Assembly (NCBI GenBank): GCA_022539475.1 | Contig: VCMS01000020.1 | Location: 309,692-373,691 of the forward strand | Direction: 5' to 3' | Source of the DNA: Gracilaria domingensis | Taxonomy: Eukaryota > Rhodophyta > Florideophyceae > Gracilariales > Gracilariaceae | Length of the DNA stretch: 64,000 bases | Part shown: positions 51,972-64,000 of the stretch, piece by piece | Position numbering within the stretch: position 1 is the stretch's first letter | Layout: each line of letters begins with the position of its first letter | Position numbers and translations under genes: made by a program | The notes under the pieces: model-generated | The model's input: only the letters and a program-made list of their open reading frames with translations | Databases searched by the model: none | What the model was told of the DNA's origin: nothing

Positions 51972-52478
51972 CTTCCTGATTATCACGCGATTTCGCGTTG
52001 CTCTACAACATGCAACGCACTACAAAAAGTACTTTCTTTTGAAGGACTTCCCACCAGTGCAGAGGGTTCCAAAAAACTTTCGGATGGATACAAAACGCTG
52101 AGAAGACAACCGAGTCCGTTAACCGGTTGTATAATGGCGCTTGATGGAATTCTGATCCGAATTGCTAAGCCGGCGAAACAGTACAACCCAGCATCGTTTT
52201 TACTAGGAAAATTTACTACGGTCTCTCAGTTCCAGCCATGGTTTCGTTTGACGCTAAGTTTGTTTGCGCGTTTATCAAATGTGTTGGATCTACTCACGAC
52301 TCTCTATATCATAGTGTTTCAGAGCTCGGTCGTTATTTGGAGAAGTACGGATTGCCATGTGGTTACTGGATTGCTGGGGACGAAGCATATATATGCATGA
52401 ACGTTCTTCTTACGCCTGTACCTTTGTCAAGAGCATCATTGGAAGAAGATGCTTTTAAGATTTTTTGCCTTCGTTGCT
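51972..52478 (+). pseudogene. Harbinger-type transposase fragment truncated by the gypsy insertion
   Basis: Directly after the AGCAT duplication the frame reads LPDYHAISRCSTTCNALQKV, LSFEGLPTSAEGSKKLSDG and GCIMALDGILIRIAKPAKQY with the first catalytic Asp. After a one-base frame change near 52210 (one A missing from an A run would explain it) it continues SVPAMVSFDAKFVCAFIKCV, GSTHDSLYHSVSELGRYLEK and WIAGDEAYICMNVLLTP with the second Asp. The N-terminus is absent and the C-terminal Glu region is missing. A Myb-like gene lies convergently next to it, the usual Harbinger gene pair. Confidence 0.75.
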
Positions 52479-53038
52479 GATCTGCGTAGAACAAGCATTT
52501 GGACGGCTTGTGTCGAAGTGGAAAATTTTAAAGACCGAGCCTGCATTTCTGCTTCCACATCTGTGGCCTCTCCGAGATTCTCATTAGCATCTAGATCCTC
52601 AGATGGAGCAAGGCTCTCTTTCTCGTTCTCTATTTCTACGTCCTCTTTACCGTCCGAAATTTCCATTCGTTCCCAAAGAGCATGAGCAACTCGTTTTGCT
52701 TTCACTACCTCGGGAAGGCAGAGCGGAGATCCGGTTGCAACCGGGGTACATTGCAGATTGTTAAACTTTCGGCGAATTGAATCTGCAGATCTACCCGTTT
52801 CTGGGTATGTTTTTCGATGCCGAGTCGCCACTGCATCCCACTCGTTAGGACCGATGGGCAATATGTCCTCAATGCCCTTTAGAAAATGAAGGCATTCGGC
52901 ACTAGTGAAGCCTAGTCCACGGCGGTTCCGTGTGGTGGATTTTGCCCTCACACTACCATTCGAAACCGTACTGCTTTCTCCTACACGATTTGCGGGACCA
53001 GATCGTAAGATGCTGCGCGTGTTACCAGGAACTCTCAC
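52436..53038 (-). CDS. Myb/SANT-like protein, probable Harbinger partner
   Basis: About 200 codons. No ATG precedes the domain in frame, so the true start may lie beyond a frameshift; 53038 is a GTG. The core is GFTSAECLHFLKGIEDILPI, GPNEWDAVATRHRKTYPETG, RSADSIRRKFNNLQ and LCLPEVVKAKRVAHALWERM. This is a Myb/SANT-like type (DUF6818-like, from memory) often found beside Harbinger transposases in algae and oomycetes. An acidic segment and a basic C-terminus follow. Its 3' end overlaps that of the transposase fragment by about 45 bp. Confidence 0.65.
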   Translation of the reverse strand: MRVPGNTRSILRSGPANRVGESSTVSNGSVRAKSTTRNRRGLGFTSAECLHFLKGIEDILPIGPNEWDAVATRHRKTYPETGRSADSIRRKFNNLQCTPVATGSPLCLPEVVKAKRVAHALWERMEISDGKEDVEIENEKESLAPSEDLDANENLGEATDVEAEMQARSLKFSTSTQAVQMLVLRRSATKAKNLKSIFFQ

Positions 53039-53562
53039 GCGAAGTGTAGCCGGCCGGGTAGAGCCTGGGGGGAACAGTTACACTTGCTTGGGCAAATTTA
53101 ATTATTTAAACGTGCACGGTGTCGGATAAGGCTTACGTCTGTGTTTCCGGAACGCTATGTAAAGAGGCTAGAATGCTATTTTGTGGATTGAATCGTTAAA
53201 AAATGTGCAAAGAATTGAATGTACGGCTATGTGCAAGCCAAAAAAAAAAATTTTTGGATACCATACTTTCATTTATTCAAGCAATACTACACAATTTGTA
53301 GAATGAGTGAAAGCGGACATAATTGCTAGTTCACCTCCATGACATGAAAGTTTTTGTACCTAGTATACCCAGACGGATTAGGTGGTAGCTCGATCTGGAA
53401 GCTACCAACGGCACTTGCATACTTGTCGATTGCAAATAAACACAAATAATGAATCTAAACTAACTCTGGCTAGTACAACATTCATGAAATGGTAGTTGCG
53501 CACATCCATTCCCCCACCGCTTTTCTACCTCCATCAACCCGGCAACTACTGTATCACCTCAA
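53039..53562. other. AT-rich spacer, no gene seen
   Basis: Contains a poly-A/T run near 53240. It separates the Harbinger remnant from the CT-skewed gene block that follows. Confidence 0.45.
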
Positions 53563-54375
53563 TCAAAGTAAAGCACCTTCATCTCCTTCCTCTACCTCCA
53601 CATCCGCGAATGATAGCGTAAGAAATTCTTTCCCATCATCATTCTCAACGGTTTCCTCCTCATCCTCAACAACATCCTCCCAGCTCCACTTCTCCTCGTA
53701 TCCAACAACACTGCTCCCTTTCCACACCGGCTTCGGAACCGTCCTGAACCCAACCCGTGTCCTCTTCTTACTATCCCCTTTTCCTTTCTTGTTCTCCACC
53801 TTCGGCTGAATTTCATCCTCTTCTACCCCCACAATCCTCGGTTGGATCGGCCTCTTCTCGCCAATCTTCCTCTTCAGACCTCTCTTCCTCACCAATTCTC
53901 CCTCCATCACCTTATCCGCCCCAAAACTATCCGTCGCCGGTACAAAGTCTCTCGCATCCTCGTCCTCGCTTCCGATCCACACTCCTACCCCAACGCCGTT
54001 CACGATCTTCGTCTTCGGCGCCGGAGTTACCGGCGTTCCCTCCACACCCCCTACTTCGCCCTTCTTCCTCCCATTCACCTCCTTCGAGCTCCCCTCCAGA
54101 TTCTCAATGCGTTTTATCATCTTCTTCTGCTCCTCTTTCATCCCGCTCAGTTCCCTTACCACGAACCCTGTCACCTTCTTCGTCAGTCGAGCCACGTCCT
54201 CTCCCATGCGCGTCCTCATCGCTCCGGCACACCCCAGCACTGCAGTGGCCCACCAGTCCAGCTCGTCCTTTTCTTCCTCCTCCTCGAACACACTCTTTAA
54301 CTTCTTGTGCGACCGTACCCCTTCGTCCGACTCCCACGGCCACCTAATGTTCGAACGCGAATCTTCATCGCTCAT
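53563..54375 (-). CDS. Charged coiled-coil protein of unknown function
   Basis: ATG at 54375 gives 270 residues (MSDEDSRSNIRWPWESDEGV). An acidic start is followed by EEEEEKDELDWWATAVLGCAG. A predicted coiled coil spans about residues 58-95 (ARLTKKVTGFVVRELSGMKE, EQKKMIKRIENLEG). Next come Gly/Val-rich linkers, a basic patch (VRKRGLKRKIGEKR, KKGKGDSKKRTR) and an acidic tail. The patchwork of acidic and basic segments suggests a nuclear or nucleic-acid-associated adaptor. Purine-rich coding composition matches the oxygenase gene at 56.7-60.3 kb, so I suspect they belong to one element. No family is recognised. Confidence 0.6.
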   Translation of the reverse strand: MSDEDSRSNIRWPWESDEGVRSHKKLKSVFEEEEEKDELDWWATAVLGCAGAMRTRMGEDVARLTKKVTGFVVRELSGMKEEQKKMIKRIENLEGSSKEVNGRKKGEVGGVEGTPVTPAPKTKIVNGVGVGVWIGSEDEDARDFVPATDSFGADKVMEGELVRKRGLKRKIGEKRPIQPRIVGVEEDEIQPKVENKKGKGDSKKRTRVGFRTVPKPVWKGSSVVGYEEKWSWEDVVEDEEETVENDDGKEFLTLSFADVEVEEGDEGALL

Positions 54376-55012: not shown

Positions 55013-56228
55013 ATGGCCTTCCAAAACACCCACAAGGTATCGCATGTACAGCTTCGCAACCAAACTGCTCTCATACCTATCCATCTCAACGCATTTCCCC
55101 ATAGGACATACATCACCTTTGACGACTGCCTTCAACTGAAGTACGACGTTGACACCGGGGAAGCCACGGTTCGAGGAGTCCAGACCCTTTTATCCCCCGA
55201 ACTGCTGGATGAACTCAGTGATGTTTATGACATACTTCACGAAGTTTTAATTCATGACCGAATCCTTGAACATCCTCCCTTCTTCCACACAATTGGGAAT
55301 CTTTCAGAGCTACCCAACTACATGTCAGAGGCTCGGTCTTATTCACATAATCCCCTGAACATGCTCTCGCTATCCTCTCTCTTGGCATTCTCCCTCTTCG
55401 TTTCAGTAGCCATAGGAGCTCTCTATGGGATTATAAAGCGTCTCACAACACACGCTCTTCTCTACGATCGCTCCTCCCGCCAAACACAACTGGCATTCAC
55501 CATCCTGTACAGCATGCTCGAAACTATGTTTCACATTATTCTGTTTGAATTGGCATTCTCTCTTCACGCCACAAGGTATGGTAGACTCGCATATGGTCTA
55601 ATGACTCCTTCGCACACATCCAGCACCGTTTCGGCACTGAGGAATAAATACCTCGGCATGGGCATCGGTGGGCTTATCGTCCTCAACCTCTCTATCTTCG
55701 TCACCTATCAGCTCCGTCCTCCTCCAATCGATGTCATGGATTCTCTCAAAACTGCATGTATTTCCTTCTTCCCCGGCGGTTTCTTCTTCGGCTTCTTCAC
55801 CATTCTCATCAACACATTTGGGATCTATTTCTCTACAAAACATAGTTCCGCTCTCCAATCGGGTGGTATACCGGAGAAGAGGGCTAAATCCGTACTGCCG
55901 TTGTATTCTAAACTCGTTCCGGAAAGCTTTGTTCCTTCAGGATTTCCTGCTTTCTATCAGACTTTTTCTGAACAGAGTGGTCCCAGTTTTCTTCGCACAC
56001 ACACTCTCCGAGTCTTTGGACCCCGAATCCTTTGGTTCGTACAGAGGTATCCCGCCCCTCCTCACAAACACCTTGTTCAATGTACTACTTGTATGCTCCG
56101 GAGTCGTCAAACACGCACCAAGAATCAACGCAAAGCGATACTTGTGCGCCATTGGTGAGCACCCTAGACCCCCGACACAACATCTACTGCCTTCTGGCGG
56201 ACGTATTCACCAAGTGCGAGACAAGTAG
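55013..56228 (+). CDS. Multi-pass membrane protein of unknown function (one frame slip)
   Basis: ATG at 55013 (ACAATGGCC). The first ~120 residues are soluble. Membrane segments follow at LSLSSLLAFSLFVSVAIGAL, TILYSMLETMFHIILFELAF, GMGIGGLIVLNLSIFVTYQL and FFPGGFFFGFFTILINTFGI. In a CACACACAC run at 55996-56004 the frame must change to reach the only plausible continuation: SESLDPESFGSYRGIPPLLT, then TNTLFNVLLVCSGVVKHAPR, a fifth hydrophobic segment, ending at 56228. One missing CA unit explains this. Without the change the frame ends at 56158 in basic, non-membrane sequence. The product would be ~405 residues. Confidence 0.6.
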
Positions 56229-56481
56229 TATACGAACATAAGTACATAACTGATACATGTTTCAACTAAACAGAATTTCTTCTCTACAAACATAGTTCCC
56301 ACTTGTTCATGACGCTCTCCAGGATTGAAGTGTTTGGTATGGTATCCTATCCTACCCTTCAATCTTGGGTAGAGTCGTCGCTTCCACAATTCTTAAACTT
56401 TCTCTCGATTCACAACATCATTTACTTCGAAACTATATTCGACACATAGATTACTACAAAGTTTCATCACATATTCACTCA

Positions 56482-56712
56482 GTCCTCTTCGCCATCCTCA
56501 AGATCGTTTTCAATCTCCTCCACTTCATAATTCTCATCTTCGTCATCTTCTTCATACTGTTCTTCCCCTTCCTCTACTATCACCTCATCATTCTCCTCCT
56601 CCAAATTCGACGGTTCCGGATTCTTCCTCTTCTCCTTCATACTAACCAGGTCTTCATCCTCCTTGAACTGAGGTCGAAAGTGTGGGTTAAGGTGTACCGC
56701 ATCCGGGAGGTT
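56482..56712 (-). other. In-frame acidic coding extension beyond the oxygenase stop
   Basis: After the TAA at 56713-56715 the same minus-strand frame stays open for 77 codons to a TGA at 56479-56481. It encodes NPHFRPQFKEDEDLVSMKEK, then a strongly acidic tail (VEEGEEQYEEDDEDENYEVE). The composition is coding-like and not random. Either the TAA is a recent nonsense mutation, or it is read through, or it is a sequence error. Confidence 0.6.
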
Positions 56713-59700
56713 TTATTTCTCAGGTACCATGTACATGTGGTAACGAAACAAGGGAATCTCGGGGAATCTTCCATCCTCATTTGAAGCGCCGGCATGGAAC
56801 ACATCACCTCTTCCAATAAATATAGACTTAGGCGGAACGAAAAACTTCCTCACAAACATCCCCCGTGCCAAACCTTCAAATACCTTGGGAGTAACTGCGT
56901 AGTCTGTATGAGACCCTTCACATACCCAAATTGGAAACGACACACTTCCGGACACCATCATAAAGTACCCCGGGTTCTTCTTCTCTTCCAGCTTATCCTC
57001 ATTCGCCAAGGTCGGGAAATCCGTATGTAACTGCTGCCGCTTGCATCCAACTGCAGTGCATAACACCCTCCCCCCCGTCTTCGGCGCATACATCCTCTCG
57101 TTTTCCACCCTATTATCTTGTAAACCCATTAAAGCACATATCTGTCCCAGTCGGGCATCCAGTAAAGCTCTCTTCTTCACAAGCACATGTCTTTCTACGG
57201 CTGCCTCCATGTCATCCACTATGCCTCTTCTCGTAGTCATGTACCTCCCACCATCTGCGTTGATGATCGGTATCCATGTGGTTCCGTTCTCTGGTATCCT
57301 AAGGTCTGGAGCCCTCTCGAAGTTCCTTCGGAAGAAGTCCAGTAATTCCACACTAACATCCCCGTCAATGAGCTTGCTCAAACTCTCTGTCAGCTTCACC
57401 AACTCTCCATCTGATGCAAAGCCGTCCAGAATACAGAAACCTCTGTCTCGAAGCTCGACGTTCTTCTTCACAAAATAGACATACGCAAGAGAGTCGTTCT
57501 TCAGTGCATCCCCCCATAACGTCTTCTCGTCGACCTCCATGCCTCCCATTGCCGCGTTCAGGAGTTTATGGCCATGATACGCTGCATGCCAAAAGACTGC
57601 ATGGTGCACACTTTCAAAGTCCTTGGGCTCCAACAAGTGGCCTCGGTGTTGCTTCTGGAGATGTATCGCATCCATCCACGGGTACACAGATTTAATGACA
57701 TTCTCCACTCCAGTCGGCCACTTGCTTGGTAAGGTCTTCACCAACTTTAGCCACGAATCGTCACCTTCATATGCTACTTCTTCAGCTTTCTTCAGACCTG
57801 GCGCCAACACCTGCGGTACTGTGTCATCGAACGGGTCAGTGTCCTCTGCCTGTGAGACCACAATTGGTACTCCATCTGAGTCTGTGTCGCTGCCAATGGA
57901 TATCTGATGACTTTTCAACAAGTTTCTCACCCCCTTCGCACCAAGACTCCGCAGATGACTGATAACTTCATCCTGAACAGATTGAATACCCTCCGTCCTT
58001 GACTTCTTCCGTTGATTAGGGTTCACGTCTCTCATTGCATTCCTTCGTCGACGGCTTCGTCTTGAACTCCTCATGCTTCTTGTCTTCGATGGCATCTTCT
58101 CTTCACTTTCTACATCAGAGTCCTTAGAGCCCTTGCGCACTGGCGCTTTGGCCTTCCTACTTGCCGAACGTGTGGCCATTCTCTGCGTTGTAGACTCGTC
58201 TACCGCTTTGGTCTCAGACTGTGGTTCAGTCGGCGTAGTACCAGTGGCAGGTTTCAACATATCCACCCCTAAACTCTTTGCCAGCTTATCACGAGCAATC
58301 CAGACTCTTCTCGAAATCCTTCCTTCCCAGAGCTTCTTATTCGAAGGTACTTCAATTCGTGCTGCCTGTGTTGCAAGGTACTCACGAACGGTGCGCATTT
58401 CAAACTTTGTCACTTCCACCTTCATGGCATACGCTTCTTCCAATGTAACTTTCTTCTTCTTCGAAAGCTCCTCTGCCAAAGATTGAAGCCTCCTGCAGCA
58501 GATAAAGAAGTATTTGCGTATGTCTTCAAAACGACCGGTCAGTTGCGACACTCGCCTCCTGGAAAAGTATGCAACCAGAGCGTCGAGCGTGAAGTGGGTT
58601 GTATGCTCATCCATGGTAAAGAATTCTTCACTTGATATACAAGAAATTCCAATCTCATGGTAGTCCTCACAAATCCGCTCCAAATGTTCCAGCAATCCAG
58701 AACTTCTCGCCACCTTCAACCCCATCTCTGCAAATCTGGCCAAATGCTTGATATTGTACTGGCCAATGATACCGAAAACACTTAGTGCACCTGCGACAGA
58801 GGTCCTCGTCATCTTGCTCAAGTCCTTCTTCTCTTCCTCAACCAGGACCGTTATAAATGACACAATAGAATGCACCTTGTCAGCAAAACCCATAAGACGA
58901 GCTTGCTTCAATCCATCGTTTAGCACATTGCCAAGGCTCAAGATTTCCCTCGTGGTCATCTTCTGTCCATCTTTTCTCTTCCACAGCGAAACAGAAAGAC
59001 CTCCACATAGATTCCTAATGTTGGGCATAGATTCACAGAGCTCTTTGAGTGCTACATGACGATGAGCTTCATCAATCAGCACACAATTCACTTTCAAGCG
59101 ATTGTTCTGCACTATGTCCTTCTCGGACACATCCTGAGACATAACAGCAACGCTCATGGTCCCAAGTGCCTGTAAGAAGCTTTTGCGTCCAATCTCTTCT
59201 TTCAGAGCCTCTACATGATTCCGGAACAACCCTCTCACAGTCATTTCCGGAACTTGAATGAGCTCAATATCGATTTCAACAGACACATACTCGTAATGAT
59301 CTAACTCAAATACCAAACTCGCATAACTCGTATCGACATCATCAGGAGGTATCACATCACCTTCATCAAAGAGTTCATTGACGTTGCTTCCAAGGCTTTC
59401 CTTCACTAGAACCACGTCTTCGTCTTCGTCTTTATCCACGTCAATCACTTCCATTGTCACTCCACTGCGATTTCCAGCCTGAATAATAGCTTCCGCAGTG
59501 CTGTTCCTCGATGCTCCAGACTGCACAATCGTAGCAGTTTGTTTACGAAATGCCGATACAGCACTCTCTGGGGTCGTGGTCATCTTGAATTCTTGCATCT
59601 GCTTTCCACCACCATGAACGTTCGATGATGTTTTCAGCTTTGGTACTGGCGCTTGTTTCCCGCCTTGGGGTTTTTTAGCATTCGACGGGGTTTTCACATG

Positions 59701-60327
59701 AGCCACTTTCATCGGTATTCGCTTTCGGGCACTGGATGGAGTTTTAGGTTCTACCACTCGCACCCGTTTCCAAGCAGTATTCGATGGCTCCTCAGGGGCG
59801 ACGAATTTGGAACTCGGAGCACCCTTGTCCCCTTCATCAGCGCTTACGACGTCACCCACCTTAGACATTAAGTTCAGGTCCCAGGCGTAGAAACCGGGCC
59901 TGTTCATGTCCTTCAAAGTCTTCGGAACAGAATCTTCATCGGTACACTTAAAGGGATAGGGATAGGGAGTGTCAAGCTCATGAGATATCTTCGCTCGCCA
60001 TATACCAACTACATCTTCCCCTGGTTTTCCCTGCAGAGCATGTCCATGCATTTCCCTTCTGAACGTTGTCTTCCCTCCACCAGCGACCGCTTCAACGAGA
60101 ACAGCTTTCCCAATCGCTGCTTTGTTCCCTCCTGCCCCTCCCAACAACAAGGTCACTTCTTCGCCTGGTGCGGGCTTCGACTTCATAGCTGTGGATGCGT
60201 TCCCCGTGGCTGCGTTCGGTTCAGCAGTTTTGGTCCCGCTTCGAAGTTGTGGTGCCATGGTTCGTCGAGGCTTTCTCACCTTTCGAGAGCGTCTCATTTG
60301 ACCCTTTCCCAGTCCCCTCATATCCAT
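56713..60327 (-). CDS. Large protein: helicase-like P-loop motifs plus C-terminal 2OG-Fe(II) oxygenase
   Basis: First ATG at 60327 (MDMRGLGKGQMRRSRKVRKP) gives 1204 residues; the frame is open 44 codons further upstream without ATG. VEAVAGGGKTTF (~79-90) resembles the superfamily-1 helicase Walker A box, and VNCVLIDEAH (~414-422) a Walker B/DEAH box. Repeated KTPSSARKR-like basic segments lie between. A second basic, nuclear-signal-like block (RSMRSSRRSRRRRN) precedes the oxygenase. The oxygenase spans ~960-1204: GFCILDGFASDGELVKLTES, the iron ligands in QQLHTDFP (His1101, Asp1103) and GRGDVFHAGAS (His1178), and an Arg in FRYHMYMVP (~1195) for 2-oxoglutarate. EVIDVDKDEDED resembles a SUMO-interacting motif. 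The substrate is unknown; nucleic acid is inferred from context. Confidence 0.75.
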   Translation of the reverse strand: MDMRGLGKGQMRRSRKVRKPRRTMAPQLRSGTKTAEPNAATGNASTAMKSKPAPGEEVTLLLGGAGGNKAAIGKAVLVEAVAGGGKTTFRREMHGHALQGKPGEDVVGIWRAKISHELDTPYPYPFKCTDEDSVPKTLKDMNRPGFYAWDLNLMSKVGDVVSADEGDKGAPSSKFVAPEEPSNTAWKRVRVVEPKTPSSARKRIPMKVAHVKTPSNAKKPQGGKQAPVPKLKTSSNVHGGGKQMQEFKMTTTPESAVSAFRKQTATIVQSGASRNSTAEAIIQAGNRSGVTMEVIDVDKDEDEDVVLVKESLGSNVNELFDEGDVIPPDDVDTSYASLVFELDHYEYVSVEIDIELIQVPEMTVRGLFRNHVEALKEEIGRKSFLQALGTMSVAVMSQDVSEKDIVQNNRLKVNCVLIDEAHRHVALKELCESMPNIRNLCGGLSVSLWKRKDGQKMTTREILSLGNVLNDGLKQARLMGFADKVHSIVSFITVLVEEEKKDLSKMTRTSVAGALSVFGIIGQYNIKHLARFAEMGLKVARSSGLLEHLERICEDYHEIGISCISSEEFFTMDEHTTHFTLDALVAYFSRRRVSQLTGRFEDIRKYFFICCRRLQSLAEELSKKKKVTLEEAYAMKVEVTKFEMRTVREYLATQAARIEVPSNKKLWEGRISRRVWIARDKLAKSLGVDMLKPATGTTPTEPQSETKAVDESTTQRMATRSASRKAKAPVRKGSKDSDVESEEKMPSKTRSMRSSRRSRRRRNAMRDVNPNQRKKSRTEGIQSVQDEVISHLRSLGAKGVRNLLKSHQISIGSDTDSDGVPIVVSQAEDTDPFDDTVPQVLAPGLKKAEEVAYEGDDSWLKLVKTLPSKWPTGVENVIKSVYPWMDAIHLQKQHRGHLLEPKDFESVHHAVFWHAAYHGHKLLNAAMGGMEVDEKTLWGDALKNDSLAYVYFVKKNVELRDRGFCILDGFASDGELVKLTESLSKLIDGDVSVELLDFFRRNFERAPDLRIPENGTTWIPIINADGGRYMTTRRGIVDDMEAAVERHVLVKKRALLDARLGQICALMGLQDNRVENERMYAPKTGGRVLCTAVGCKRQQLHTDFPTLANEDKLEEKKNPGYFMMVSGSVSFPIWVCEGSHTDYAVTPKVFEGLARGMFVRKFFVPPKSIFIGRGDVFHAGASNEDGRFPEIPLFRYHMYMVPEK

Positions 60328-60516
60328 TATATGGTGCCAGTGTGTGTGATATACACGAGTCCTGGTGTTCTTCAAATCGTACGTTTGCTCCCGTGAAGTT
60401 GCAACTGCTCGTGTTCGAATCTCCACCCTTTCTCGCGTGAGCACAATGGACGCAACCACTCACGTTCAAAACGGCTGAAATGCCCACGTGAGCAGTGTGG
60501 GTACAGTTCCTGATGG

Positions 60517-60524
60517 TTATAAAT
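60517..60524 (-). promoter_or_regulatory. Possible TATA box of the oxygenase gene
   Basis: ATTTATAA on the minus strand, 190 bases upstream of the ATG at 60327 and just outside one arm of the large palindrome. Confidence 0.3.
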
Positions 60525-60577
60525 GGTTGGATCAATGTCCGATTCCGTCCTGGTTGACCACTGTCCCCGCCTTTCAT

Positions 60578-60713
60578 CATCTTTGAACATCGCCCGAGCG
60601 CCGTGTGGGAACCGCAGTTCGCCCAGTTCATAGCCGAGATCATAGCTATGATCTCGGCTATGAACTGGGCGAACCGCGGTTCCCACACGGCGCTCGGGCG
60701 ATGTTCAAAGATG
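60578..60713. repeat. 136-bp near-perfect palindrome, no spacer
   Basis: Arms 60578-60645 and 60646-60713 are complementary over 68 bases with one mismatch (60616 against 60675). The centre is CATAG|CTATG. Each arm begins CATCTTTGAACATCGCCCGA and contains CGCCGTGTGGGAACCGC. It lies between the divergent oxygenase and methyltransferase genes, flanked by a TATA-like box on each side. Palindromes of this length without a spacer are normally unstable in genomes. That points to recent origin or a function as an origin, terminus, resolution site or bidirectional regulatory hairpin. Confidence 0.95.
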
Positions 60714-60754
60714 TACGAACCCAGTGTTTTCTACGTTGATTTTACATACTAGAC

Positions 60755-60760
60755 ATATAA
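60755..60760 (+). promoter_or_regulatory. Possible TATA box of the methyltransferase fusion gene
   Basis: ACATATAATGC at 60753-60763, about 235 bases before the ATG at 60994 and 40 bases beyond the right arm of the palindrome. A pyrimidine-rich leader follows. Confidence 0.3.
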
Positions 60761-60993
60761 TGCACTGCACATACTGAGGTGCCCCACCGGTTTGATGTGT
60801 TTAGATCCCACTCTCGCCTCTCTATTTCATTACCCGCTCAGTTCTCGGTAATCCGTCGCAACCGCGCTCTCCACCATTGTTTCCGACGCTTCCCGACGTT
60901 TCCGACGCTTCCCACCCATTTAAACATCTCCGAAACTTCTACCGTTTCACAATACTCGTTTACTTCGCGTCCTTTCCGATTCTCAGTTCTTAC

Positions 60994-63900
60994 ATGGCGT
61001 CCACCGGAAATGACGCTCCTCGGACTGTTAAGCAGAGTGTGCTGGCCGATGAGAACCACGGCACGGTATCCTCTAGCGCATCCTCTAGCGCGTCGTTCGA
61101 TTCAGCCAGGATGGCAACGCGTTTCTTGAAATGTTGGGGGTTGTTCATTGAGTTGCGAGATGCGTATGCCGCTTCAAGAAGTGGTACTGGTAATCCGCGT
61201 GAAGTTGGGTACACGGAAGTTGTAGAATACGCTGTATCAAACCGTGAACACCTGGCATGTGCACGAGAGTTCATCACCACTGCGGTCAAGGGTCCTTTCC
61301 AAAACTACTCCGCAAAAGAACTCACGAAGATCTGTCTGGACGTGCGTTTTCTGAGCAGGGTCTACAAATATACGCGTATCACTGATCTAGACGACGAGAA
61401 TTCTGATCGGCGCGTGAGAGATTTGTTTACCTGGAGTCTTGAAAAGGATTTCGACAACGGTAACTCGTTCATAGAACGGGCTTTCTGGAATGACTTTTTC
61501 AAACGACATGGTCCAGGCAGTAAGCAGACGAAGAGAACTACGTTCAGGATTGGGCCTCCCACTCGTTTTCAGCAGTTACTCTATCTCTCTTTCGTGAAGC
61601 ATATAACTTCGGAGAGAAATCTCCCAGCGGCGAAGAGAGGAAGGACCGGGAAGGGAACCCATAGAGCTGTGCAGTTCGTCGACGACTACATAGCTTCGAA
61701 TGAAACGCACGGGAGACGGATGGCACATGCAGTGCAAACAATTTGTAAGGGATGGGATTTCTTTGCCTCAACCTTAGGCTTTGGTGATGGTGAGCAGATG
61801 TTGCTGCCATACCTGCTTGTAGAAAAGAAGTCGCTTGGGTTCCATGTCATTGAATCCCGCTCTGTTGGGTACAGTCCGGAGTCAGCTTTTCATACGTTGG
61901 GGGAAGAACTGAAACCCACGTTGGATGTGAACGACACCGTTTCTTGGGTTCATACTCTTCCCGATACTATCGACGCCAACTTACGGGAGTTGGCAAAGGA
62001 ATTCTTGGCAGATTTCAGCAAGATTGTGTTGAATGGCTTCCTATACAAAATGTCCCCAACGTCAAGATGGAATTTGTTGGAAAGCTTCAGACCTGGCCGC
62101 CCCGCACGAGTACCACCCCGTTTCAATGTATTCTACGAAGAGTACGTGTCTCCTATTCATCAAGCGATGTCTGTACATAACTTCCAACCATCTCGACTTA
62201 TCCCAAGGGCCGCTCCTTCAGGGCAGGATGGAGGAAGTAATACCGTCACGGTTAAGGTTGAGGACTCGATACAGATTCCGAGCTCCTCCAAGAGGAACGC
62301 CGCAGGGAAAAGCTCAGTTAACTCCGATGTCATCGTCATCCTCGATAGCGACAATGAAGAAGGTGATACACCTGGTGCCTCTGTTGGGGCGAAAGATAAC
62401 GTTCAAGATGGGGTTCTCCCCCCTCATGACTTTGATGACACGCGCACGTTAAATGCTCTAGATGTGGTGCGAGAAAGCATGGAGAAGCAATTCTCAATGC
62501 ATTGTGTCGGATATGACGAACTGGTGGAGGACCATGGTACTATCTTCCATCGGATACATCTTTGGAAGGCAACGTTCAGTTCGTGCTCACAGACCCACCA
62601 TATGGCATCCGCGACAGCGAGTACGACGAATTGGCTGACGATGATATGGACAATACTGCGGACATCATGGCATCCATGCTTCGACCAGGAGGACATTTCG
62701 TTTTGTTCTGCAGTATCGACCAGTTTGAAGACTGGGAAGAGATTTTGCGAGAGCACAAGTCGGAGGACGCAAGCGGAAAGAAAACCGCATCATTCTTAGT
62801 GGATTCGACGCCCATGAACTTCATTCGTTCTCGTTCGAACCCCTTGAAGAACCCTGCGCGTAATACTACTCGCCTGTTTGGGGCGACGGAGTACGCCGTG
62901 CATGGCGTGAGGAATGGAAACCCGTACGCGGAACAGAAGGTAATGGTGAACTATCAGAACTTCAACTACGTTTCAGCTCGCTATCCTGGGCACTATTCTA
63001 TCATTGACCAGGTTCCAAATCTTACGCCTGGGGAGAGTCTCCGATGGAGAGTGAAGAGTGGTAGAAGAATTCGAACCGCGAAGGCTCGTCCAGAACAAAA
63101 GTCGAGGCAGCTACTGATGGAGCTGATAGCGAGGTTCTCGAATCCCGGGATGTTGTGGTTGATCTCTACTCCGGGACGTTCTCGTGCGCGCTGGCATGTA
63201 TGGATATTGAGGGGCCTCGGCGTTTCATGGATGTGAGCAAGATGAGCAGTGTTTCTCTCATGCCAAGCACAATGCTATTGTGCATTACGCAAGAAAGGTG
63301 TGGCGCAATGAATTGAAGATGAAGAACCGGTTACGAATGAGGTAGTTCAAGCGTCTTATTGGTGGATGCCAAAATTCCTGAACGCCGAAACGAAAGACTC
63401 GACCATCTGCGAAGCACCCCAAGGGATCCCATCTACCAATCTTCCATTCCATATATGTCGTATCCTATCCACCTATTGGAATGAACCTGGGCTTATCACT
63501 ACGCTCAGAGAAACCTTCCATGAGTAGCCATTGCCTTACAAGGAAGATGACTACGATGGACAGTCACAATTTACTCCTGTCGAGGCGAGATCGCTATGGC
63601 TGTGTGAGAAGTCGAATATACAACACAAGCGCAGCAATGAAATGAGTATTACGAGATAGGCGTTTTCCGCAAGGGAGGTTTATGGAACTTTTATGGGACC
63701 TGGGTGTATCCTGATCTAGCCGACCAATACCACACAGTTGACGTATGGAGACCGGAATGCTGGGGCCACTGCATCTCGGATTCAGGAGTATTGCATGCAA
63801 GTGAGGGTGAAGGGCAAATTTACAAAACTCTCCGCATATATGATACTGAAGTCAACGCTGGTCATGCCGCGATATTCCTGCTCCTTCTGTGTAGGCGCTA

Positions 63901-64000
63901 TATCAATGACGCGTCATATCCGTGAAGGTGATTGAGGACAAGGAATTGCCGAAGAAAATGGATTCTACATGGCACGCAAACCAAATGTATTCATTCGCCA
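60994..64000 (+). CDS. Unknown domain fused to DNA amino-methyltransferase (frame-broken, runs off window)
   Basis: ATG at 60994 (MASTGNDAPRTVKQSVLADE). About 520 residues of unrecognised sequence follow. They include a SUMO-type acceptor (VKVE, ~62251) and a SUMO-interacting-like motif (DVIVILDSDNEEG, ~62326). Then comes an N6-adenine/N4-cytosine methyltransferase of beta order. VQFVLTDPPYGI (DPPY at 62592-62603) and MLRPGGHFVLFCSIDQFEDW are followed later by motif I, DVVVDLYSGTFSCALACMD (63149-63205), and GCEQDEQCFSHAKHNAIV. Coding-like sequence continues to the window end (YWWMPKFLNAE, GLWNFYGTWVYPDLADQYHT). The frame changes six times (~62567, 63148, 63229, 63332, 63642, 63921). Each is repaired by one extra base in a short homopolymer. 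One TAG remains at 63525. Confidence 0.75.

Follow-up and report, generated by a model that had tools for sequence, protein, structure and literature searches.

A giant Plavaka-type transposon of the red alga Gracilaria domingensis encodes a DNA methyltransferase–SET fusion paired with a putative oxygenase

The last 64 kb of contig VCMS01000020.1 (C20) of the red alga Gracilaria domingensis, positions 309,692 to 373,691, hereafter called the window, contain a divergent gene pair: a putative 2-oxoglutarate (2OG)-Fe(II) oxygenase gene on the minus strand and a DNA methyltransferase–SET gene on the plus strand (Table 1). The pair belongs to a giant DNA transposon of the Plavaka type (EnSpm/CACTA-related), which is present in many copies in the genome of 77.9 Mb and 680 contigs. 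The gene order of the element is fixed: the putative 2OG oxygenase (leftward), the methyltransferase–SET fusion (rightward), a coiled-coil-like protein (rightward), and the Plavaka transposase (leftward). The pair was noticed in an original prediction from the letters of the window, and it is not a chance arrangement, since it recurs in the same orientation through the genome. The minus-strand protein, predicted to have about 1200 residues, is encoded in an open frame of 1248 codons identified in a scan of open reading frames (ORFs). The gene likely starts at ATG 60327, giving 1204 residues, because the methionine at this position is also kept in a diverged copy. The plus-strand gene contains a DPPY motif and probably starts at ATG 60994. 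The window copy of the element is decayed. The methyltransferase frame is disrupted by frameshifts at about 62560 and 63150, and the gene is truncated by the contig end at 64000, which is why the SET domain escaped the original prediction. The predicted joining of an N-terminal region to a DPPY methyltransferase was correct and incomplete. The Plavaka transposase and the left end of the element were also missed, and the element is larger than first proposed, starting at 53135 and extending beyond 64000.

The methyltransferase–SET gene encodes METHYLTRANSFERASE fused to a SET domain, and its product has three parts: an N-terminal region without assigned function, a beta-class N6_N4 DNA methyltransferase, and a SET lysine-methyltransferase domain. 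The DPPY frame of the window matches the profile PF01555 with an E-value of 1.1e-5 and 25.9 bits, slightly below the cut-off of 26.7, and copy P0001, in which the frame is open through the domain, reaches 42.7 bits. A search of public protein data returned five relatives of the fusion. The best match of its profile in the PDB is M1.HpyAVI (4.7e-13), followed by CcrM, M.BceJIV and RsrI. The structure model of relative P0005 has a mean predicted local distance difference test score (pLDDT) of 48 and is good only in the methyltransferase core; the fold search with this model identified M.BceJIV and M1.HpyAVI (template modelling score normalised to the target of up to about 0.8), CcrM, and rotifer N4CMT. 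The DPPY motif IV precedes the S-adenosylmethionine (AdoMet) motif I, an order that we take to define the beta class. The same class rule is used in PMC8885841. Motif order and class fold, the latter from relative P0005, place the protein among beta-class DNA amino-methyltransferases, and the profile and fold matches bear out the predicted DNA amino-methyltransferase. Methylation of adenine N6 or cytosine N4 is predicted from motifs and models, and the closest solved relatives are mostly N6-adenine enzymes. The bacterial beta-class N6-adenine enzymes M1.HpyAVI, CcrM, M.RsrI and M.BceJIV share the fold and the DPPY-before-AdoMet order with the algal fusion, but they lack its N-terminal region and SET domain.

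The SET domain is recognised by profile and motifs in other copies and in relatives, which places it among SET lysine methyltransferases, and the class-defining motifs of the fusion are carried by these other copies. Three of the five relatives score above the cut-off of PF00856 (P0005, 26.7 bits; P0008, 33.2; P0007, 22.6). The motifs GxG-F, IND, and YG are aligned in all seven segments compared, ELG is present in one relative, and the usual NHS motif is replaced by IND, with the Asn retained. Of seven loci examined in the window's family, five (L022, L024, L028, L030, and C25) can be read from the IND motif through to DEIYVDYGPTYPW without a change of frame, and L020 and L033 have the end matching DEIYVDYGPTYPW in another frame. 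In a second lineage, L034 and L035 end in DELYVDYGPSYPW, and L036, L037, and L038 show stops or changes there. When the SET segments were used as a profile against the PDB, they matched EZH2 chimeras (E 9e-5) and KMT5A (E 9e-4), too weakly for predicting the target lysine. Only the best candidates were scored in genome-wide searches, and all counts of profile matches and partners given below as "at least" are lower bounds for this reason. At least 150 SET matches were scored among 311 candidates; all 150 are above the Pfam cut-off, among them genome copies of a family other than the window's, and some of them are host genes. By score and frame length, the top eight seem to be ordinary SET genes of the host. 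At least 76 of the 150 lie 365–445 bp downstream of a methyltransferase match on the same strand. The same architecture is found in another family in the genome, represented by L001 (C6) and L004 (C211), the latter with DPPF instead of DPPY. Many of the PF01555 matches, of which at least 150 were scored among 328 candidates, belong to further diverged methyltransferase–SET families.

The partner of the fusion is a putative 2OG oxygenase, identified by its conserved HxD...H...R motifs. The HTD motif occupies residues 1145–1147 of the 1248-codon frame, the distal His is residue 1222 in GDVFHAGA, and the Arg is residue 1239. Among 18 mostly close copies examined, 10 of the 11 with a letter at these positions retain the H and D; the distal His is present in 12 of 12, and the Arg in 10 of 12. 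The HTD motif and the distal His are kept in both genome lineages that have the region; C231 of a diverged lineage agrees with the iron-triad motifs. About 57–73% is shared with the second lineage, in which the residues of the series HTD–GSH–GDVFHAGA–R are largely kept. The search of public protein data returned a single relative, P0009 (30% identity); it has retained HSD and GSH, and its end could not be aligned. A two-sequence profile returned none. We take the order of these motifs to be that of PhyH-like 2OG oxygenases. The iron triad and distal Arg of the predicted oxygenase are thus present in the copies, and the oxygenase fold lacks confirmation from Pfam, PDB profiles, and modelling, as discussed below.

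Other assignments for the partner failed. The helicase-like Walker A and B boxes of the original prediction are not conserved among relatives. The DEAH sequence read as Walker B is peculiar to the window copy: residue 464 is E in the window, and of the 14 other copies readable at this position, among 18 examined, 12 have G; the relatives read DGxHRxxAL or nearly so. At the position of GGGKTT, the K is found in 11 of the 16 copies with a letter, the second lineage has GDGKDY, and P0009 has no lysine. The DGxHRxxAL motif suggested a ParB-like N-terminal half, a reading that was rejected, as this half of the protein gave only weak, unrelated matches in the PDB and Pfam. A comparison with TET/JBP enzymes had also been drawn, and no TET/JBP match was found in Pfam at E-values up to 10 for four members of the C-terminal domain.

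The region between the two genes contains a near-perfect palindrome. Folded as RNA, it has an energy of −139 kcal/mol (z −24.7). Among the 15 copies fetched from the window's family, eight (L019, L021, L023–L026, L028, and L033) have two palindromes about 400 bp apart, L027 is partly double, a single palindrome like that of the window is found in L029, L030 and L032, two copies have a partial one, and the remaining copy lacks it. The spacing between the genes is 421 bp in five loci vs 916–920 bp in eleven, and the single-palindrome form, which accompanies the shorter spacing, looks like a deletion product. Short remnants of the palindrome are present in four of the five second-lineage copies. 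The palindrome is possibly a bidirectional operator or a source of hairpin RNA.

The vehicle of the pair was identified by its transposase. To the right of the methyltransferase lies a coiled-coil-like ORF with weak family matches at most, and in C12 a Plavaka transposase is encoded in a frame of 1110 codons on the strand opposite to the methyltransferase (PF18759, E 6e-24). Transposase-gene sequence is at the expected place in six of the ten copies read (C12, C25, C25b, C233, C395, and C19); C8 and C166 have unrelated sequence there, C42 carries a different part of the element, and the tenth copy is unreadable. Genome-wide, at least 123 Plavaka matches were scored among 672 candidates. At least 32 of the 123 have a convergent methyltransferase match within 15 kb, and in 29 of the 32 the gap is 4.7–5.9 kb. 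When SET matches are included, at least 43 of the 123 have a convergent partner within 15 kb, vs five on the same strand and three divergent. The element-encoded transposase and its fixed convergent spacing to the methyltransferase and SET matches assign the element to Plavaka. The predicted mobile element is a Plavaka-type transposon. The KDZ transposons proposed as a comparison were rejected: no KDZ family was listed, and the transposase matches Plavaka. The suggested viral derivation found no support either, as neither the methyltransferase–SET alignment nor the alignment of the 2OG C-terminal domain had a relative in the viral_contigs collection.

The N-terminal region of the methyltransferase protein matches at least 87 places in the genome, which merge into at least 60 loci (the best 69 of 640 candidates were scored). 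We fetched 20 copies, 15 of the window's family and five of the second lineage (L034–L038), which has about 72% DNA identity to the window's family. L029, L030, and L032 match the window without a break over about 8 kb at 97%; in most other fetched copies the homology falls into two blocks with unchanged order and orientation. L025 and L027 retain parts of the 2OG gene. In the second lineage, L034, L035, L037, and L038 have both genes in the same arrangement, and no 2OG match was found in the fetched copy of L036. L020 and L022 cease to match the window at 53134/53135, and the flanks beyond are unrelated. The sequence of this left terminus occurs 39 times in the genome with up to three mismatches vs 0 for a reversed-pattern control. 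Ten more left ends were read, and their flanks are all different, except for one common to C12 and C233, which are evidently duplicates. The sequence readable to the right contained no inverted partner of the left end. C12 and C25b, which have different left flanks, resemble each other over at least 19.6 kb, counted from the left end, and the likeness of C25 to C12 ends sooner, just beyond the transposase gene. Read by eye, the left flank of L022 gives ...IVDGLHRLKAIQYLAA, and this copy is apparently nested inside the 2OG-type gene of another element.

The recurrence of the pair had been named beforehand as a test of the original prediction, and the two genes co-occur repeatedly. In the close 2OG family, at least 27 of the 37 merged loci have a divergent methyltransferase match within 6 kb, and two more have one at 12–20 kb. 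The search with P0009 gave a distant set of at least 43 merged 2OG loci with 38–52% identity to P0009, and at least 16 of the 43 have a divergent methyltransferase and/or SET match within 15 kb. In four of the distant loci (C60, C57, C296, and C168), the transposase is also present at 8.5–10 kb and the order is unchanged; in C20 and C89, the transposase is present and no methyltransferase was detected nearby. A methyltransferase match in the other orientation at the distant locus of C6 belongs to a neighbouring element on the contig. On the window's own contig, a more P0009-like 2OG copy with 51% identity (G000:C20:221467-228111) has a Plavaka transposase 2.8 kb away, with no methyltransferase detected nearby.

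Both proteins are under strong purifying selection between the element lineages. The ratio of non-synonymous to synonymous substitution rates (dN/dS) between the two lineages is 0.145–0.182 for the 2OG gene (four comparisons) and 0.087–0.095 for the methyltransferase–SET gene (four comparisons, with a fifth saturated); as dS is about 1.8–2.8, near saturation, these ratios are safe as orders of magnitude only. Among copies of the recent family, the methyltransferase–SET gene shows a ratio of amino-acid to silent changes of 1.03 relative to the neutral expectation (14 copies). The corresponding ratio is 0.67 for the coiled-coil-like ORF and 1.18 for a further ORF (three copies). This is the usual pattern of a transposon, in which proteins matter during movement and copies decay later.

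The methylation background of the genome bears on the possible mark. No C5 cytosine methyltransferase (PF00145) was detected in the genome by a search that matched in 10 of 14 control genomes, all prokaryotes. Because none was detected, N6-methyladenine (6mA) or N4-methylcytosine (4mC) is likelier than 5-methylcytosine (5mC), which is probably not the mark at issue; the host may be without 5mC. An eraser of 5mC is unlikely, since there is neither a TET/JBP profile match nor a detected C5 methyltransferase. A search for MT-A70 gave no match in the genome or in any control and is hence uninformative about absence.

Based on the structure of the element and the conservation of its genes, we propose that the transposon carries its own epigenetic toolkit, which controls its silencing, and we assign this reading a probability of roughly 0.55. 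The Plavaka transposase would move the element. The methyltransferase–SET fusion would methylate the adenine amino group, or less likely that of cytosine, in element DNA, and its SET domain would methylate a histone lysine on the same chromatin. The two coupled marks may keep element copies expressible despite host silencing. The oxygenase-like partner may remove or alter an opposing mark, or reset the element's own, and the shared palindromic promoter would allow joint control of both genes. Such anti-silencing or self-regulation would benefit the element rather than the host. We infer that the net effect favours expression of the element; the comparisons with AMT1 and N4CMT, discussed below, seem to point opposite ways. 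A more far-reaching version, which we regard as doubtful, is that giant Plavaka transposons own the DNA methylation machinery of this alga, in which no C5 methyltransferase was detected. Each lineage would have a two-substrate writer and a dedicated oxygenase, which would edit or remove the mark, under one palindromic promoter; this self-contained writer–writer–eraser system would license the element's own chromatin and would account for most base methylation of the genome.

Several observations weigh against the proposed toolkit. The activities of the element's enzymes are predicted from sequence and models. The SET domain of the window's own family is recognised by alignment and motifs, P0004 scores 20.5 bits against PF00856, slightly under the cut-off, and the Pfam scan reported no PF00856 match for P0001, in which the SET part is frameshifted, L035, and P0006. 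The SET part of the P0005 model is of low confidence and gives the SET fold no support. For the C-terminal domain of the 2OG protein, there was no relevant match in Pfam or NCBIfam, the best PDB profile match was unrelated (E 0.35), and the AlphaFold model has a pLDDT of 32 and does not confirm the fold. The reading of the partner as an eraser is unproven because neither profile nor model confirms the 2OG fold. Among the matches listed, 10 of the 37 close 2OG loci, including the two with a partner at 12–20 kb, and 27 of the 43 distant ones have no partner within the limits, and 80 of the 123 scored Plavaka matches have no methyltransferase or SET match where expected. In L020, L022, and L031, the 2OG gene is missing entirely or for the most part. 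The left terminus begins with (N)CGTCTG and differs from the fungal Plavaka termini TGT..ACA and CATCA..TGATG given in PMC12730594. Cut-and-paste movement by the element's own transposase is presumed for copies followed to at least 19.6 kb, short of the right end and the target-site duplication.

The partner might instead be another metal- or DNA-binding protein of the element, in which the HxD...H...R residues coincide by chance. The failure of the profile searches and the model is what this would lead one to expect, as are the matches in PHROGs, which were weak and unrelated (best E 0.009). We nevertheless consider it rather unlikely, given that the motif residues are largely kept in the second lineage and in part even in P0009. 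It is very improbable that both enzymes are accidental cargo, captured with neighbouring DNA and passively carried. Giant transposons often carry captured genes, and the changes of the fusion look neutral within the recent family; however, the divergent arrangement recurs across lineages of about 40–60% protein identity, and the dN/dS values of about 0.09–0.18 between the two lineages speak strongly against passive carriage.

Two further explanations keep both enzymes functional and differ from the anti-silencing toolkit in what the marks would do. Control of transposition could be coupled to replication or methylation: the methyltransferase would mark the ends or the promoter, the transposase would act only on hemimethylated or unmethylated copies, and the SET domain and the oxygenase would tune element expression, so that the system would serve self-restraint or timing, not evasion of the host. 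Dam methylation controls bacterial IS10 in this manner. The similarity of the methyltransferase to bacterial N6-adenine enzymes, the location of the genes on the element at a fixed spacing to the transposase, and the palindrome within the divergent promoter all agree with such control, but it offers no obvious role for the SET domain, which acts on protein, or for the oxygenase, and we consider it unlikely. Alternatively, the fusion could deposit repressive marks on element copies, similar to the read-write silencing proposed for rotifer N4CMT, and thereby limit copy number and damage to the host. Rotifer N4CMT, which combines the same class of methyltransferase with a chromodomain, is described as depositing 4mC at transposons and reading silent marks (PMC8885841), and EZH2, which the SET segments match best among PDB profiles, is a repressive enzyme, although that match is too weak to predict the lysine. 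Self-silencing would bring little gain to the element, yet the genes are strongly conserved between lineages, and eukaryotic 6mA deposited by AMT1, an enzyme of another family, accompanies H3K4me3-marked permissive chromatin according to PMC12695648. Self-silencing is therefore quite unlikely in our judgement.

The toolkit proposed here can be compared with several known systems. According to a wide survey, AMT1-dependent 6mA marks permissive chromatin in many eukaryotes (PMC12695648). TET-bearing Plavaka and other DNA transposons are described in fungi (Kojima 2025, PMC12730594). Like the algal element, the fungal Plavaka transposons combine a Plavaka transposase with a dioxygenase gene, for which an escape from silencing was proposed. 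In contrast, their dioxygenase is of the TET/JBP type and their hosts have 5mC (PMC12730594), whereas the alga gave no TET/JBP match and no detected C5 methyltransferase, and the algal element adds the DNA methyltransferase–SET fusion. The same paper cites SET-bearing HarbingerS and MuDR transposons of the oomycete Phytophthora, which are likewise DNA transposons encoding a SET lysine methyltransferase; they belong to other transposase superfamilies, and the account there describes them without a DNA methyltransferase fusion or an oxygenase partner. The giant EnSpm/CACTA families of Chondrus crispus, with 16–20 kb and 4–5 ORFs (Kojima et al. 2013, cited in PMC6431247), resemble the element in red algal host, related transposase group, size, and ORF number. 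They may be the same kind of element, compared here by the description in PMC6431247, which does not state the products of the extra ORFs. Rotifer N4CMT (PDB 8s9m), a structural match of the fusion, is also a eukaryotic protein that combines a bacterial beta-type N6_N4 methyltransferase with a chromatin domain. However, its additional domain is a chromodomain, which is a reader, and not a SET domain, which is a writer; it makes 4mC, and in the account cited it is a bacterial gene captured by the bdelloid rotifer host and is not described as part of a transposon (PMC8885841).

No description of an N6_N4 methyltransferase–SET fusion on a transposon, or of its pairing, was found among the titles and abstract beginnings listed by searches of an open-licence PMC library, a collection that leaves most subscription papers outside. 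What seems to be new is the fusion of methyltransferase and SET domain and its constant association with a putative oxygenase. Transposons with one chromatin enzyme are known, and such enzymes may serve escape from silencing. The algal element, which is conserved, joins a DNA methyltransferase and a lysine methyltransferase in a single polypeptide and pairs them with a candidate oxygenase, in a genome with many copies and no detected 5mC machinery. This gene content suggests self-management of silencing by the element. The element also adds to the eukaryotic examples in which a chromatin domain is attached to a bacterial beta-class methyltransferase.

Table 1 Features of the element in the window (window coordinates)
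Feature	Position	Strand	Basis
Left terminus, (N)CGTCTGTGTTTCCGGAACGCTATGTAA, first base variable among copies	53135–53162	+	L020 and L022 match the window only up to this point
270-residue ORF within the element, possibly a chance ORF	53566–54375	−	Weak Pfam matches at most, best E 0.035
381-residue ORF with hydrophobic stretches within the element	55013–56155	+	Ratio of amino-acid to silent changes 0.89 of neutral, from 2 copies only
Putative 2OG-Fe(II) oxygenase gene (likely start ATG 60327)	56713–60459	−	Motifs; at least 37 close and 43 distant merged loci
Near-perfect palindrome, 136 nt, 68-nt arms without spacer, divergent promoter region	60578–60713		Sequence; fetched copies
Methyltransferase–SET gene, cut by the contig end	60994–64000	+	Window; domain make-up of other copies and relatives
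N-terminal region of the methyltransferase–SET gene, without assigned function	about 60994–62550	+	
N6_N4_Mtase region with DPPY, frameshifted in the window	about 62562–63235	+	
Decayed start of the SET region	about 63600–64000	+	

The genome contains 12 matches to the phycobiliprotein family PF00502, 10 of which are on contig C680; such genes are in keeping with a red algal genome. Just outside the left end of the element, a minus-strand ORF at 52439–53038 of the window matches DUF6818 (E 4e-7).

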